Positions 8,111 through 15,190 of a stretch of DNA of 22,400 nt are shown piece by piece (position 1 is the stretch's first letter; each line of letters starts with the position of its first letter). This DNA comes from a virus. The stretch spans positions 1 through 22,400 of IMG/VR virus record IMGVR_UViG_3300046001_008050; one strand, given 5' to 3'. The notes beneath the pieces are model-generated. The model saw only the letters and a list, made by a program, of their open reading frames with translations. It was not told where the DNA came from and did not search any database. A program made the translations under genes and the position numbers.

Positions 8111-9619
8111 TTAGCCGGGGAATTTCTCGCCGGTTTCGGCGTTGACCGCGACGTTGCCGGTGTATTGCTGCCAGCGGCGGACGGCAACGTCGACGTAGGC
8201 GGGGGATAGTTCCATGGCGAAGCAAATGCGGGCGGTTTGTTCGGCGGCGATCAGGGTTGTTCCGCTGCCGCTGAATGGTTCAACACATAAACCACCTGCA
8301 GGAATGGTTGATTTAATACATCTGGCAATCATGTCCACCGGCTTTGGCGTAGCATGACCATGGCGAACTTCGCCAGTCACTCGCCCAAACTCCCACACAT
8401 CGGTCATATTGTCGTGGGTGTTGTCGAAATAAGCGCGGGTGGCGTAAAAGTCGCGCTTTAATGCGTCGTGGTCGCGCTTGAATGCGTCGTGGTCGCGCTT
8501 GAATGCGTCGTGGTCGCGGGCAGCTTGCTGAATTTTTTTATAATGCTCTGCTGTTATCAGCGTCCATTGGCTTTTTGTAACCCAATGGCTTCCCATTTGC
8601 GTTCCAGTTACACGGTTTAAATCCCTTACCGTCCAGCCGGCCTTTTTCATTTCGGCATCAAGATAGCCGCGCACAGGTTCCCATCCTTCCCAATAATTGT
8701 CGGAATTGGTGTTGAAACCCTGCTCGCCGAGGACAAAGAAAAGGCAACGCTCTGTTTGCGGTGGGTATCCGCGCATTTCTGCCGATGTAATACCAAACCC
8801 GCCTGCCTTTTTCCAGACGATTTCATTTCGCAGCGTCATCCGCTCAGAGATGGATAACCCGCCTTGATACCAAAGCCGCCAAAGTTCCGGCGCGTTTCCC
8901 CATATATATGCGCTGGCGTTGTCTTCTGCGTGCGGCCTTAATACCTTCCACCACGCCATCTGGAACGCATCCAGCTTGTCGGCGTATAAGTTATCGTTTT
9001 CTACACCGTCTTTTTCTTTTCCCATGCCATATGGCGGGTCGGCATGAATCAACGCGGCTTTTTTCCCGTCCATTAAGGCGTTGACCGCAACAGACGAGGT
9101 CGAATCACCACACATAATCCGATGCTTGCCCAGCGTCCATATATCGCCCAACTTGCTGATGACCTCAGCCTGCACGGCGGGCGTGGCGTCGGCGTCGGTG
9201 TTGCCTTCTGGCGTAGCGTCCAGGCTGGCGATCATGGCGTTGATGTCTTTGTCGTCAAAGCCGGTGAGGTCGAGATCAAAGCCCATGTCTTGCAGGTCTT
9301 TGAATTCCAGCGCGAGCATTTGCTCATCCCACCCGGCATTGGCGGCGAGTTTGTTGTCGGCGATGACATAGGCGCGTTTTTGCGCTTCGCTGAGGTGGCC
9401 GAGGCGGATGCACGGCACGCTGTCCATCTCCAGCTTGCGCGCCGCCATGACGCGACCGTGGCCGGCGATGATGCCGCCCTGCCCGTCGATCAGCACCGGG
9501 TTGGTAAAGCCAAACTCGACAATGCTGGCGGCGACTTGCGCCACTTGCGCGTCGCTGTGCGTGCGGCTGTTGCGGGCGTAGGGGATGAGCGCATCGAGCG
9601 CGATGTTTTCGATTTTCAT
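8111..9619 (-). CDS. ParB-domain / beta-class DNA methyltransferase fusion, 502 aa
   Basis: ATG 9619 overlaps the stop of the gpZ-like gene. Residues 1-115 are a ParB/Srx-like domain: NSRTHSDAQVAQVAASIVEF, then GGIIAGHGRVMAARKL (48-63). A methyltransferase follows with catalytic DPPY at 194-197, a target-recognition region, and the SAM-binding EPFSGSGTT at 447-455. Motif IV before motif I is the order of beta-class enzymes, which methylate exocyclic amines of adenine (or N4 of cytosine). A short repeat, three units of DHDA-F/L-KR, interrupts the recognition region near residues 370-391. Such ParB-MTase fusions are common in phage packaging regions and probably protect phage DNA or mark it for packaging. 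The target sequence cannot be read from the gene. Confidence 0.9.
   Translation of the reverse strand: MKIENIALDALIPYARNSRTHSDAQVAQVAASIVEFGFTNPVLIDGQGGIIAGHGRVMAARKLEMDSVPCIRLGHLSEAQKRAYVIADNKLAANAGWDEQMLALEFKDLQDMGFDLDLTGFDDKDINAMIASLDATPEGNTDADATPAVQAEVISKLGDIWTLGKHRIMCGDSTSSVAVNALMDGKKAALIHADPPYGMGKEKDGVENDNLYADKLDAFQMAWWKVLRPHAEDNASAYIWGNAPELWRLWYQGGLSISERMTLRNEIVWKKAGGFGITSAEMRGYPPQTERCLFFVLGEQGFNTNSDNYWEGWEPVRGYLDAEMKKAGWTVRDLNRVTGTQMGSHWVTKSQWTLITAEHYKKIQQAARDHDAFKRDHDAFKRDHDALKRDFYATRAYFDNTHDNMTDVWEFGRVTGEVRHGHATPKPVDMIARCIKSTIPAGGLCVEPFSGSGTTLIAAEQTARICFAMELSPAYVDVAVRRWQQYTGNVAVNAETGEKFPG
8451..8513 (-). repeat. Three tandem 21-bp units inside the methyltransferase gene
   Basis: Units at 8451-8471, 8472-8492 and 8493-8513 are identical except for one base (TTA versus TGA in plus-strand reading), with a partial fourth. 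They stay in frame and encode DHDAFKR, DHDAFKR and DHDALKR. Near-identity suggests a recent slippage expansion. Confidence 0.9.
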
Positions 9620-10490: not shown

Positions 10491-10736
10491 TTAGCGGATT
10501 TCCTTTTTTGGTTTGGCCCATGGGCCGACGTGGGTTTCGTTGAGGGCGATTGTTTTGTTACGGTCAACGGTGAATTTGCAGCCGATTTCCCGCCCGTTTT
10601 CGCGGGCGTAAAAGTCGCTGCTGCCGGCCATGCCGTTGCGGATGGACGGGTCGATCTGGTCGCGGCCAAATGCGTCGCGCAGTTCGTCGATCCAGGCGGC
10701 GACGGTGGGCATGGTTTTGCGTAGGGGCTTGGTCAT
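10491..10736 (-). CDS. Conserved phage protein of unknown function, 81 aa
   Basis: ATG 10736 overlaps the stop of the small terminase gene by four bases. The sequence has TVAAWIDELRDAFGRDQIDPSIR, then GMAGSSDFYARENGREIG, and ends with VGPWAKPKKEIR. Small proteins with this AWIDxLRxAFG...FxAxENG pattern are frequent in phage packaging regions. The match is recalled and no function is established. It has no signal, membrane or metal motif. The tight coupling from small terminase through this gene to the zinc-finger gene suggests a shared packaging or late-stage role. Confidence 0.65.
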   Translation of the reverse strand: MTKPLRKTMPTVAAWIDELRDAFGRDQIDPSIRNGMAGSSDFYARENGREIGCKFTVDRNKTIALNETHVGPWAKPKKEIR

Positions 10737-11302
10737 TGGCCGGCCTTTCGCATGCGGCGCAGGGCGGCGGGGAATTCGGCTTTGAGGTGGCGGCGCAGGG
10801 TGGCGAGTTCGCTGGCGAGCAGGCGGCGGCGTTCTTCTTTGCTGCTGGCGACGGCCAGGCGCGGGGCGGTTTGGTCGATGACGCGCTCGATGCTGGCGCG
10901 GAGCATGGCGCCGAGGCCGGTGGCTTCGTGGCGGATTTGCTCGAGCGGGTAGCGGGCGTGCCGGCGCAGGGCGATTTCCAGCTTGATGCTTTGGTTTTCA
11001 AAATGCAGCAGCAGGGCCTTGTAGCGCGTTCTGTTGCTTTCCCCGCCTTCTGCTATATCCGGCGCAACGTTTTCGCGCTGTGGCGCAACGCTGACAGTTT
11101 GGCCGCGCTTTTCGGCGTGCTTTTCGGCCATGTCGGTGCGGTGGCCTTGGGTTTGTTGCCAGAGTTTCAGACTGGGTTCAACGAGGATTTGGCCGTTGTC
11201 GGATTTGACGAGGCGGCCAGCGGCCAGGGCGCGGTTGATGGTGGAGCGATTTACGCCCAGGCGACGGGCGAATTCGGCTTGGGTTTCGGTTTTGGCGGTC
11301 AT
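10733..11302 (-). CDS. Terminase small subunit, Nu1-like DNA-binding protein, 189 aa
   Basis: I take ATG 11302. Upstream codons in frame only read through the repeat array and have no coding character. Residues 5-35 form a helix-turn-helix, TQAEFARRLGVNRSTINRAL, like the winged-helix DNA-binding domain of lambda Nu1. A long charged region follows: residues 85-130 include LEIALRRHARYPLEQIRHEA, and residues 140-189 are Arg/Leu-rich (RASIERVIDQ, EERRRLLASELATLRRHL). This matches the coiled C-terminal part that binds the large subunit. It would recognise the packaging site and recruit the large terminase. The dyad box array starts 17 bases upstream of its ATG, as lambda cosB adjoins nu1. No strong Shine-Dalgarno is visible. 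Confidence 0.8.
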   Translation of the reverse strand: MTAKTETQAEFARRLGVNRSTINRALAAGRLVKSDNGQILVEPSLKLWQQTQGHRTDMAEKHAEKRGQTVSVAPQRENVAPDIAEGGESNRTRYKALLLHFENQSIKLEIALRRHARYPLEQIRHEATGLGAMLRASIERVIDQTAPRLAVASSKEERRRLLASELATLRRHLKAEFPAALRRMRKAGQ

Positions 11303-11318: not shown

Positions 11319-11586
11319 TTGACGTTCCAGACGTTCCGGGCGACGTTCCATAGGTGACCGCTTGTAAGTCTTTGATTTTTTGTATACGTTCCAGACGTTC
11401 CAGACGTTCCATAGGGGGTACACGTATACGCGAGGGGCATGTGTGCATAGGTGTGGTTTTGTTGTGTGTGATGTGTACACGTGCGCGGGGGTATGGAACG
11501 TCTGGAACGTCTGGAACATGCCTTGTGCCGCAAGGGTTTCCGGTTTTGGGGGTATGGAACATTGCCTGGAACGTCTGGAACGTCAA
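11319..11586. repeat. Dyad-symmetric array of twelve ACGTTCC boxes; candidate packaging site or replication origin
   Basis: Six ACGTTCC boxes start at 11322, 11331, 11343, 11386, 11395 and 11404. Six in reverse orientation (GGAACGT, or GGAACAT at two places) start at 11495, 11504, 11513, 11556, 11568 and 11577. Spacings are 9, 12, 43, 9, 9 and then the mirror image 9, 9, 43, 12, 9, exactly symmetric about 11452.5. The two 92-bp arms align without gaps (62 of 92 identical). Boxes are conserved while the 36-bp spacers within the arms are not. The array fills the whole gap between primase and small terminase, and its outer right box overlaps the primase stop. It could be a Nu1 binding site (cosB/pac), an iteron-type origin or an RNA hairpin control element. 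Confidence 0.9.
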
Positions 11587-14018
11587 CCGGCGCCAGTGAG
11601 CGCTTGTTGAAACTCGAAAAAACAGTCGGTGAGCCACTGCGACTGGGTTTTGTCGCTTGGGGCGGTGGCGCTGGGCGGCATGATGGTGGCGAGTGGGCGG
11701 GTCTTGCCCATGTAGTGCGTGTTGTCGTAACGGTGGTGTTTGGCGTTTGACCAGCCAACGCGCCGCCCTATTTTGCTGATGAAGTCGGGCGCCCGCCGGG
11801 GGTGCCGTTCGCCGTTGGTTTTGCACCAGGCTTCGTAGGCGCTGTAGATCTGGCCGCTGCCGCAGGGCACGAGCGGGTAACTGGTTTGCCCTTCTTCCCA
11901 TTCGTCAATGAAGCGGTCGTCGCTGGCTTTTGAGAGGGCGATGAGGTCGTGTTTGGCAATGGTCATTGGCGGCGGGGTGTGTGGGCCGAAGTCACCAAGG
12001 TCTAGATTGAGCAGGTAGTGGTAGAAGGCGGCAACCCCGCCGGTGTCGAGCTCTTTTTGAACGTCGAGGTAGTATTGCTTTGTCAGGGGTGGCGGCGTCC
12101 AGATGACTAGGTGCCGGCGATCATCGTTGTCAAGCGGGAGCGGCATGCCTTCGTTGGATAGAAAGGCGAGCTGTAGTTGGTTTTTTTGGCGATAGGCGTC
12201 GGTGAATACTTTGCGGATGCGCAGGCGCTCGCCGGTGACCAGTTCCTTTAATTCATTTTTGAGCTGCCATTTGTCGGAGGAGTTGACGACTTCCTCGGCC
12301 AGCACGAAGAGTTTGTTTTCCCAATCGGCGTTGAAGTTGTCTTGCAGCGCTTTTTGATCGAGCACGACCGAGTAGTCACGGTAGGGGTGTCCCATGCCGT
12401 AGATTTTGGCAAGTGCTTTGAAGACCATGCTTTTGCCGGTGCCTTGCAGGCCGTGCATGATGACGGCGCTGGCCATCTTGGCGCCCGGATGTTGCAGCGG
12501 ATAGGCCATCCAGCAGAGCAGCCAGTATCCAATTTCTTCGCCCTTGCCTTCGCCGTTGCAGAGGTAGTGGATCAGTTCAAGGATGCGCCCGTAGTTGCCT
12601 TTTTTGGCTTTGAGCGGCCAGCCCTTCCAGGTGTTGAGCTTGACGTATTCATCCTCGCCGCTTGGGTCAAAGCCAATTTGGTCGACGTAGTAGCTGCCGC
12701 GCTCGATCCAGACGGGGTGGCGCTTGATGTCGTCGCCCTTGCTGCCCGCTGGCATTAGCGCGGCCATCTGGTCGCGATGTACCAGGTCTTTGCGCCATAG
12801 GTCGAACAGGCATTTCCCTTTGCCATCGTCGATAGGTACGAACCTGCCGACCGCTTCATCCAAGGTCATGATGCTGACGGCGGCTTTGCGCCCTTCCCCG
12901 CTCCCCTCTGATGATGACCCCGCGCATGTTGCGAGTGCGTCGCGCCAATTCAGGCTGTCGAGCTTGGCGTTGATCTGGTTGGCCAGGACGAGGGGGAGAC
13001 CTGTGAGGGCGGCGAGATCGTTGTAGTCGGTGAGCTTCTTGCCGTTGCGCTGATCGATGCCGTCGGCGTTGGTGAAATCGGGCTTGGTCCAGTTGCTGCC
13101 TTCAATCTCGGCGCTGGCTTTTGACGCGGCGCTGATGCCTGGGTTGCCATCGGTGAGGTAATCATCGTCGGCACAAAACAGAATCTTGAGTTTTGCGTAG
13201 TGCTTGCGTAGCAGCTTTCCGGCTTTGCCGAGGTTGTTGGCGCTGAAGGCGTAGGCCACTGCCTGGCCGGTGGTTTCGTGCAGGCTGGCGGCGGTGGCGT
13301 AACCTTCAGCGATCAGCAGCACGCCGTCGCGGCGCACGTGGCCGATCAGCCCGAAGGTGCCGCCCATGCCCATGCCGGACGGCCAGAATTCTTTGTCACG
13401 CTCGATCTTGATCCGGCGCGGGTGGCCAGCCGGGTAGATAAATTGCAGGCCGCAGACGTTGCCGTGCTCGTCGTGCATCGGCACCACCAGCGCGCCATCG
13501 GCTTGTTTCAGGCGGTAGATATTGGATTCATCAATGCCGGTGAGCAAAATGTCGGCGCTGTCGCCCAGGATGCGCAGGCCGTGTGGCTTGATCTGCTTGC
13601 GCGTCAGGTAGTCATGATCGGCGACCGGCGCACAGCTTGACCAGACGACCGATGCCCAGCGCGCCGCCGTCTTGGCTTCAGCCAGGCGGGTCTGAGCGAT
13701 ACGGCGTTGCGCTTCTTTATGCGCCTCGCGCATGGCGGCGATGTCTTCTTGGCTCAAGGCCGGCTTGTCGCCATCCTTTGCCGGAAGCTCAACGCGGATA
13801 CGGCCATCATCATTGCCATGCCACACGCCGTAGTCGCCGACGATGTATGTGGCGCCCGACTTCGACGTCCACTCGCGCAGGCGAGACCACCCGCGCTTTT
13901 CGTGATCCTCGCCTTCAGCCCGCCAGCGCTGAATCACCGAGTCAAATCGCAGCGACTTGTCAATGACAAGCCCCGCCACCTCCAACTGCTTAACTACGTC
14001 GTCCAGGTTGATATACAT
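11583..14018 (-). CDS. Phage primase-helicase: Toprim-type primase plus D5/SF3-like ATPase, 811 aa
   Basis: ATG 14018. Residues 1-100 contain MYINLDDVVKQLEVAGLVID and WTSKSGATYIVGDYGVWHG, an N-terminal primase region without visible zinc cysteines. The Toprim core has LLIAEGYATAAS near 230 and ILFCADDDY near 280. A linker rich in Ser and Gly follows near 370. The ATPase half has Walker A GLQGTGKS near 520, Walker B LFVLAEEVVNS and the sensor region LAFLSNEGMPLPLDNDDRR, typical of VirE/DUF5906-type SF3 helicases of phages and plasmids. It would prime and unwind phage DNA at the origin. It is the first large gene leftward of cro. A structured 50-base element lies 24 bases before its start and the box array immediately follows its stop. 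Confidence 0.9.
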   Translation of the reverse strand: MYINLDDVVKQLEVAGLVIDKSLRFDSVIQRWRAEGEDHEKRGWSRLREWTSKSGATYIVGDYGVWHGNDDGRIRVELPAKDGDKPALSQEDIAAMREAHKEAQRRIAQTRLAEAKTAARWASVVWSSCAPVADHDYLTRKQIKPHGLRILGDSADILLTGIDESNIYRLKQADGALVVPMHDEHGNVCGLQFIYPAGHPRRIKIERDKEFWPSGMGMGGTFGLIGHVRRDGVLLIAEGYATAASLHETTGQAVAYAFSANNLGKAGKLLRKHYAKLKILFCADDDYLTDGNPGISAASKASAEIEGSNWTKPDFTNADGIDQRNGKKLTDYNDLAALTGLPLVLANQINAKLDSLNWRDALATCAGSSSEGSGEGRKAAVSIMTLDEAVGRFVPIDDGKGKCLFDLWRKDLVHRDQMAALMPAGSKGDDIKRHPVWIERGSYYVDQIGFDPSGEDEYVKLNTWKGWPLKAKKGNYGRILELIHYLCNGEGKGEEIGYWLLCWMAYPLQHPGAKMASAVIMHGLQGTGKSMVFKALAKIYGMGHPYRDYSVVLDQKALQDNFNADWENKLFVLAEEVVNSSDKWQLKNELKELVTGERLRIRKVFTDAYRQKNQLQLAFLSNEGMPLPLDNDDRRHLVIWTPPPLTKQYYLDVQKELDTGGVAAFYHYLLNLDLGDFGPHTPPPMTIAKHDLIALSKASDDRFIDEWEEGQTSYPLVPCGSGQIYSAYEAWCKTNGERHPRRAPDFISKIGRRVGWSNAKHHRYDNTHYMGKTRPLATIMPPSATAPSDKTQSQWLTDCFFEFQQALTGAG

Positions 14019-14491: not shown

Positions 14492-14677
14492 TCAGGCGGC
14501 CTGCTGTTGGTTGGTATCAAAGAGGTCAGGATAGGCAAGGCGCAGGTACATCAAACGGGCATCGGGGATGCCATCGTTTCGCCACTTTGATACCGCTTGG
14601 CTGGATACATTGAACAACTTGGCAACGGCAGTATTGCCGCCCAGTTGGTCAATGATTAAGGAGTCGATATGTTTCAT
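14492..14677 (-). CDS. Cro-like / YdaS-type helix-turn-helix regulator, 61 aa
   Basis: I prefer ATG 14677. It opens MKHIDSLIIDQLGGNTAVAK then LFNVSSQAVSKWRNDGIP, a compact lambda-repressor-like helix-turn-helix of the YdaS/Cro type (first helices plus recognition helix SSQAVSKWR). The C-terminus is ARLMYLRLAYPDLFDTNQQQAA. It is encoded divergently from cI across three operators, as Cro is. TACAAT (14685-14690 on the minus strand) is a five-of-six -10 hexamer whose start point would fall at the ATG itself, suggesting a leaderless message. ATGs further upstream lie within that promoter. It would repress cI and open the lytic pathway. Confidence 0.8.
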   Translation of the reverse strand: MKHIDSLIIDQLGGNTAVAKLFNVSSQAVSKWRNDGIPDARLMYLRLAYPDLFDTNQQQAA

Positions 14678-14687
14678 ATGCGCCATT

Positions 14688-14749
14688 GTAACCATAGTTG
14701 CACCGTAAACGCAAACCATAGTTGCACAAATATCTGTAACGATAGTTAC
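14688..14749. promoter_or_regulatory. Three CI/Cro operators, spaced 24 bp
   Basis: The 14-bp sites are GTAACCATAGTTGC (14688-14701), CAAACCATAGTTGC (14712-14725) and GTAACGATAGTTAC (14736-14749). The last is a nearly perfect palindrome (GTAAC/GTTAC). Each starts exactly 24 bp after the one before, near 2.3 helical turns. The first overlaps the cro -10, and the third ends at the base before the cI ATG, so it must affect cI expression. The same motif recurs at 15662-15706. Confidence 0.9.
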
Positions 14750-15190
14750 ATGGGAAATCATCTTGCCAATAGGTTCAAAGAAATCCGCACCGCTGCCGGT
14801 GATACGCCTGCCAGAGCTGCGGAGAAGATCGGCATCTCGCGCCAGGGTTACGTCAAGTGGGAGAACGGCGATACCAAAAACATGACGCTAAATAACCTGC
14901 TGATCTTCTGCGATAAATATAATGTCGAGGTTGAGCCGCTGATTCGCTGCGCTCGCGCTGACGATGGCAAGGCCGGCGCGGTTTATTACCATGACAAGGC
15001 CACCGTTCTGACGCTACAAGAATCGTCGGCCGGCGATGTGATCGATTTCCCCAACGGCCACCTAACTGAACTAATGGCCATTGCCAGGAAGATCAACGAC
15101 ACCGGGCTGATCCGGCTCACTGAGCGCGCCGCGCAACTGGCTGAAGATTACCCGGTGCAGTCATTAGGAAATGCCCCGTCATCTCATTGA
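14750..15190 (+). CDS. CI-like repressor without a peptidase domain, 146 aa
   Basis: ATG 14750 directly follows the third operator, leaving no room for a Shine-Dalgarno, so a leaderless message like that of lambda cI is likely. Upstream ATG 14669 would run through the operators and is rejected. Residues 6-60 are an HTH_3/XRE domain: ANRFKEIRTAAGDTPARAAE, then KIGISRQGYVKWENGDTKNM. The remaining 85 residues include TVLTLQESSAGDVIDFPNGH and MAIARKINDTGLIRLTERAA, probably for oligomerisation. There is no Ser-Lys S24/LexA peptidase region and no Ala-Gly cleavage site, so induction by RecA-stimulated self-cleavage is not expected. It should bind the five operators and hold both early operons silent in the lysogen. 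Confidence 0.85.
   Translation: MGNHLANRFKEIRTAAGDTPARAAEKIGISRQGYVKWENGDTKNMTLNNLLIFCDKYNVEVEPLIRCARADDGKAGAVYYHDKATVLTLQESSAGDVIDFPNGHLTELMAIARKINDTGLIRLTERAAQLAEDYPVQSLGNAPSSH

Follow-up and report, generated by a model that had tools for sequence, protein, structure and literature searches.

A mirrored twelve-box array behind a phage primase-helicase gene: a probable replication origin with a purine-pyrimidine core

Results

The window analysed here is the whole 22.4 kb stretch (22,400 nucleotides) of the virus record IMGVR_UViG_3300046001_008050, which encodes an integrase, a repressor, Cro-like genes, a primase-helicase, both terminase subunits and a ParB-methyltransferase fusion. The fusion gene (8111-9619, minus strand), just upstream of the large terminase gene, joins a ParB-like N-terminus to a DNA methyltransferase and carries the short tandem repeat RDHDAFK in its second half. 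A YdaS/Cro-like gene and a divergent HTH repressor (14492-15190) adjoin the primase, and phages PG1 and PS3 likewise have YdaS-type genes ahead of the primase. The features around the array are as follows.

10733-11299, minus strand: terminase small subunit (TerS), phrog_57; a neighbour that the array does not need
11322-11349, plus strand: outer arm, terminase side; ACGTTCC boxes at 11322-11328, 11331-11337 and 11343-11349; its spacing grammar recurs in relatives
11365-11377, minus strand: perfect match to the IHF consensus, AATCAAAGACTTA, in the terminase-side spacer (11350-11385)
11386-11410, plus strand: inner arm, terminase side; ACGTTCC boxes at 11386-11392, 11395-11401 and 11404-11410
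11411-11494, no strand: core, with alternating purine-pyrimidine runs at 11418-11432, 11437-11449 and 11471-11487
11495-11519, minus strand: inner arm, primase side; boxes at 11495-11501, 11504-11510 and 11513-11519 (the last GGAACAT)
11528-11540, plus strand: CCGCAAGGGTTTC (CAANNNNTT), within the primase-side spacer (11520-11555), which mirrors the IHF-like site in degenerate form
11556-11583, minus strand: outer arm, primase side; boxes at 11556-11562 (GGAACAT), 11568-11574 and 11577-11583
11583-14018, minus strand: primase-helicase, the proposed cognate initiator; Toprim and DUF5906 SF3 helicase, phrog_2249
11595-11876, minus strand: C-terminal winged-helix region, the proposed box reader (AlphaFold2 pLDDT 91.5; covariation with the boxes)

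Read directly from the sequence, positions 11319-11586 hold six ACGTTCC boxes that face six GGAACGT or GGAACAT (GGAACRT) boxes, at spacings of 9-12-43-9-9 and 9-9-43-12-9 that mirror each other about 11452.5. An earlier note on this DNA had described exactly this layout, together with the overlap of the last box (11577-11583) with the stop codon of the primase-helicase (11583-11585), and all its coordinates hold. Ten exact ACGTTCC copies occur in the whole window and all ten lie within the array, against a mean of 2.4 and a maximum of 6 in shuffled windows (none of 100 shuffles reaches ten); elsewhere in the 22.4 kb there is no second box cluster. The note had also held that the spacers of the two arms had diverged in sequence while keeping their length. 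The kept length stands, but the spacers are not wholly unrelated: both 36-bp spacers carry an outward-pointing CAANNNNTT, placed equally far from the inner boxes on either side (offsets of 29 and 30).

Relatives were surveyed in a set of 250 loci, drawn from phages, viral contigs and bacterial genomes and seeded from the window’s primase family, with a non-redundant subset of 118 loci. In 244 of the 250 loci the most frequent 7-mer behind the primase has more copies than in any shuffle (typically 8-12 versus 2-3), in 232 it also outnumbers all other tiles of the same locus, and at least two plus two facing boxes are present in 224. All nine close viral relatives have a two-arm array between the primase stop and TerS, mostly built from other words. 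In the closest relative (contigs L010/L011; L011 3998-6432), two frames share the primase between them, which reflects a frameshift or an assembly error; the box word of L010 is GTGCAAG. Named phages whose primases are only about 29-41% identical have an array right after the primase stop as well; TerS is adjacent in Stenotrophomonas S1, and the next gene is not TerS in Halomonas H4907, Pseudomonas pAN and PG1, Marinobacter PS3 and Moraxella Mcat9. Arrays likewise follow the primase in a further primase subfamily, and are absent or weak in Achromobacter Mano and a few genome loci (L138, L167, L168, L170). A DNA-level search for the array in named phages gave no match, as would be expected if the words change, and a profile search using more distant primases (A1) gave no conserved stretch. 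A protein search for TerS in named phages gave no match.

The words differ widely, with 79 different ones among the 118 non-redundant loci. The same 9/12/43 geometry with different box sequences, which the earlier note had proposed looking for in relatives, is found. Box steps cluster at 9 (306), 12 (149), 42-43 (62) and 32 bp (46), the last being the 43-bp step with an extra box about 11-12 bp in. One locus with the word TGTCACA (L058) repeats the 9-12-43-9-9 / 9-9-43-12-9 plan of the window exactly, and another with GCGTTCC (L056) has a mirrored 11-11-42-8-9. Box positions are mirrored within 1 bp in 402 of 954 cases, against 256±15 when the gap order is permuted and 292±16 when arms are taken from different loci. 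Most arms have five or six detectable boxes and rarely seven, as counted by automated calling that misses degenerate boxes, finding fewer than twelve in the window itself and wrongly placing the core of pAN. This conservation of geometry under changing words supports the idea of an ordered nucleoprotein complex, which the earlier note had put forward.

Inner boxes point towards the core in 502 of 503 cases; for the innermost pair (236 of them) this orientation follows by construction. Outer boxes can be turned, and 37 of 117 loci have some that point away from the core. The turned boxes bear on the possibility that the array forms a long RNA (or cruciform DNA) hairpin, acting between the early and the late genes as a terminator or a switch for read-through; an RNA hairpin was the third reading of the earlier note. 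Positions 11315-11590 fold as RNA at -132.7 kcal/mol, compared with -64.9±4.0 in shuffles; however, a stable fold follows from the inverted boxes alone, the spacers are not complementary and do not pair, and turned outer boxes would break a long hairpin. A pure hairpin, moreover, leaves the match of box words to the primase C-terminus (below) unexplained, and we consider this explanation highly improbable. As a class, a structured RNA element with conserved pairing of the whole array was rejected on the same 37 loci and on the Rfam scan, which was empty, as was a tRNA scan.

The core between the arms, of about 85 bp, is of unusual composition. It holds the three longest runs of alternating purines and pyrimidines in the 22.4 kb, the third tying with one 13 bp run elsewhere. 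Across the survey the median longest run is 16 bp in cores and 6 in random and intergenic windows, and 98 of 118 cores exceed the intergenic 99th percentile of 12; this control was redone with intergenic windows only, since coding sequence could bias random ones, and the result held. Runs of 8 or more take up 46% of the cores versus 3% elsewhere, and in a related primase subfamily the runs reach 38 bp. The core is not A+T-rich (GC 0.59, compared with 0.60 for the loci), which counts against an origin, where an A+T-rich stretch is expected. A+T excess along the arms is modest and peaks at about 0.13 in the terminase-side spacer, not in the core; that spacer also holds the region’s most A+T-rich 25-mer (11362). 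In Moraxella phage Mcat9 (L019 7349-7709) the array is kept and the core is A+T-rich by eye, with no alternating purine-pyrimidine run, making it a natural contrast to the purine-pyrimidine cores.

The IHF consensus is WATCAANNNNTTR. Pointing outward and with at most one mismatch, it occurs in 26 of 118 loci on the right and, mirrored, in 21 of 118 on the left, against 0.7% of control windows; perfect matches number 10 and 11 of the 118, against 0.06%. The relaxed form CAANNNNTT is found in at least one spacer of 54 of the 118 loci, where about 4 would be expected per spacer, and motif positions cluster 21-22 or 30-32 bp from the innermost box. These mirrored motifs suggest a bend in each spacer, though not a universal one. 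In the spacers of many arrays (for example L142, L157, L163 and L176) another mirrored motif, GCGGGTTT / AAACCCGC, often takes the place of the IHF-like site. The origin of the phage-inducible chromosomal island (PICI) EcCICFT073 (L264 14175-14240) and the left spacer of the array of phage L010 both contain something close to CCGCGCCANTACTGGCAT, a hint that they descend from a common ancestor or use the same host factor.

An AlphaFold2 model of the helicase part and C-terminus of the primase-helicase, built from 57 sequences (pLDDT 91.5), has an SF3 core followed by a winged helix, the latter fold being assigned by reading the secondary structure. Its structural matches are NrS-1 (6k9c, Z 25.9), SaPI5 PriRep1 (Z 18.1, residues 1-349), ASFV PrimPol, D5/E5, E1 and AAV Rep; NrS-1 also matches the helicase part in sequence (E 3e-27). 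Box similarity was compared with protein similarity in 40-residue windows of the primase, after partialling out the remainder of the protein. Only over the last ~110 residues does the correlation depart from near zero, reaching 0.22, the locus pairs in these tests not being phylogenetically independent. In partial Mantel tests on the 73 non-redundant loci where TerS adjoins the array (500 permutations), the primase C-terminus gives 0.29 (null sd 0.03; reached by 0 of 500 permutations) and the TerS HTH 0.06 (20/500), falling to 0.03 (90/500) given the primase C-terminus. The primase C-terminus is encoded beside the array and linkage may therefore add to the covariation, yet TerS lies about as near with little signal, so linkage alone is no explanation and its contribution is limited, not removed. 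From this covariation we infer that the C-terminal domain reads the boxes.

The same figures weigh on a cos site, in which the boxes would be cosB-like sites for TerS, as the earlier note had considered, and the core would be cosN. In the window and many relatives the array does lie just upstream of TerS and a GpA-type large terminase, and the cosB of lambda similarly combines repeated sites with an IHF bend. But TerS is 1.5-3 kb from the post-primase array in Halomonas H4907 and Pseudomonas PG1, and no TerS-like helix-turn-helix was found within 3 kb of 70 arrays (12 non-redundant); the further primase subfamily also has arrays without TerS close by. With the primase C-terminus taken into account, the words cease to track the TerS HTH. 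Thus the terminase reading is very unlikely, and the class of lambda-type cos sites read by the terminase small subunit was set aside on the arrays without TerS and on the covariation, an indirect test. A parS-like partition site for the ParB-like domain that the phage encodes, fused to the methyltransferase, is barely conceivable, given that the words follow the primase C-terminus and that the arrays adjoin the primase and not parB.

Discussion

Facing arms directly after an initiator gene, with words that shift with the C-terminal winged-helix domain of that initiator, argue at the level of sequence that the array is very probably a replication origin read by the phage’s own SF3 primase-helicase, as in PICIs of the SaPI and EcCICFT073 type. 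An origin for this enzyme was among the possibilities raised by the earlier note, and it is supported by arrays that follow the primase and words that track its C-terminus. The same pairing of protein and DNA would yield the same covariation at a control locus (an operator, a copy-control site like crr of P4, or a handcuffing site for the primase-helicase) that is not the start site, and iteron arrays often act both as origin and as control site. Against a control locus alone, the window has its one box cluster only, and the cognate origins of homologous initiators sit at exactly this place (PMC7581432, PMC6092414); we judge it improbable.

If the array is an origin, we speculate that the C-terminal domains of one hexamer would bind the boxes of one arm, while a second hexamer would bind the facing arm head to head. 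That most arms have five or six detectable boxes, with seven rare, is the reason to propose one hexamer per arm, a proposal we hold tentatively. IHF or an equivalent bend would fold each 43-bp spacer and bring outer and inner boxes into one complex; such folding would account for a spacer that has kept its length but not its sequence. We give IHF-bent spacers about even chances. Against them, IHF-like motifs occur in no more than about half of the loci, even in relaxed form. The core between the hexamers would be the site of duplex opening and loading. Alternating purine-pyrimidine sequence can adopt Z-DNA under negative supercoiling, and we infer that the core may do so; opening would then be aided by this alternation and not by A+T richness, a role for the core that is plausible but on the doubtful side. 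The two helicases would finally depart in opposite directions and prime with the Toprim domain. Taken as a whole, an origin class of bacterial viruses in which a Z-DNA-prone purine-pyrimidine core replaces the A+T-rich element between two facing six-box arms, with one helicase hexamer per arm and IHF-bent spacers, is something we offer with less than even confidence. The literature search, with most subscription journals outside its reach, found no description of these arrays or of a Z-prone phage origin. The purine-pyrimidine core is widely conserved and unexplained, and makes the opening of a G+C-rich origin directly testable; the 79 box words, with their sequenced winged-helix domains, are in turn a data set for how initiators read origins and switch specificity.

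Several known systems share parts of this plan. The SF3 helicases SV40 T antigen and papillomavirus E1, the latter among the fold matches, form a pair of hexamers that face each other on short inverted sites, but they use an N-terminal origin-binding domain, far fewer sites and A+T-rich melting elements. The alpha protein of P4 is a fused primase-helicase reading short iterons, and differs in having two separate cis regions, ori1 and crr. Phage NrS-1 primase-polymerase is the closest solved structure for the helicase part (6k9c), with an archaeo-eukaryotic-type primase domain where the present enzyme has Toprim. An iteron plasmid origin with a RepA/Rep WH1-type initiator was rejected, the adjoining initiator being an SF3 primase-helicase. 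In the putative SCCmec origin, Cch2 is likewise an initiator helicase with a C-terminal domain and short iterons just downstream of its gene (PMC7581432); only three direct iterons are present there, and facing arms are not described.

The nearest likeness is to the PICI origins (SaPIbov1, SaPI5, EcCICFT073), and these give a precedent for a two-arm plan, where the earlier note had no described cos, pac or ori with this exact plan to name. These origins lie directly 3' of the initiator gene, with two iteron sets round an A+T-rich region (PMC7581432, PMC6092414); SaPI Rep and SCC Cch2 use their C-terminal domains to bind iterons that closely follow their own genes (PMC7581432), and in E. coli a plasmid is replicated from a GN-PICI rep-ori with this layout (PMC6092414). 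The phage arrays agree in their place directly 3' of the initiator helicase gene, in two iteron sets flanking a central presumed melting site and in a D5/DUF5906-type helicase with C-terminal DNA reading, for which the phage side offers family and fold, the reading itself being indicated by covariation only. The EcCICFT073 boxes, read here, are also mirror-laid, with gaps of 9-45-23-11 and 11-23-45-9 around the middle. The phage arrays appear to function as PICI origins do. They differ in fine spacing (9/12/43 here), in having the alternating core of ~85 bp where PICIs have an A+T-rich centre, and in belonging to full phages with both terminase subunits, whereas PICIs are satellites without a large terminase of their own; because the A+T-rich centre is missing and the phages are not satellites, we do not count the arrays as members of the PICI origins. 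The two-arm plan has been stated to be common to no other known replicon than PICIs (PMC6092414). The present survey finds it to be general in a large group of Proteobacteria phages and prophages, which points to related replicons in phages and satellites.
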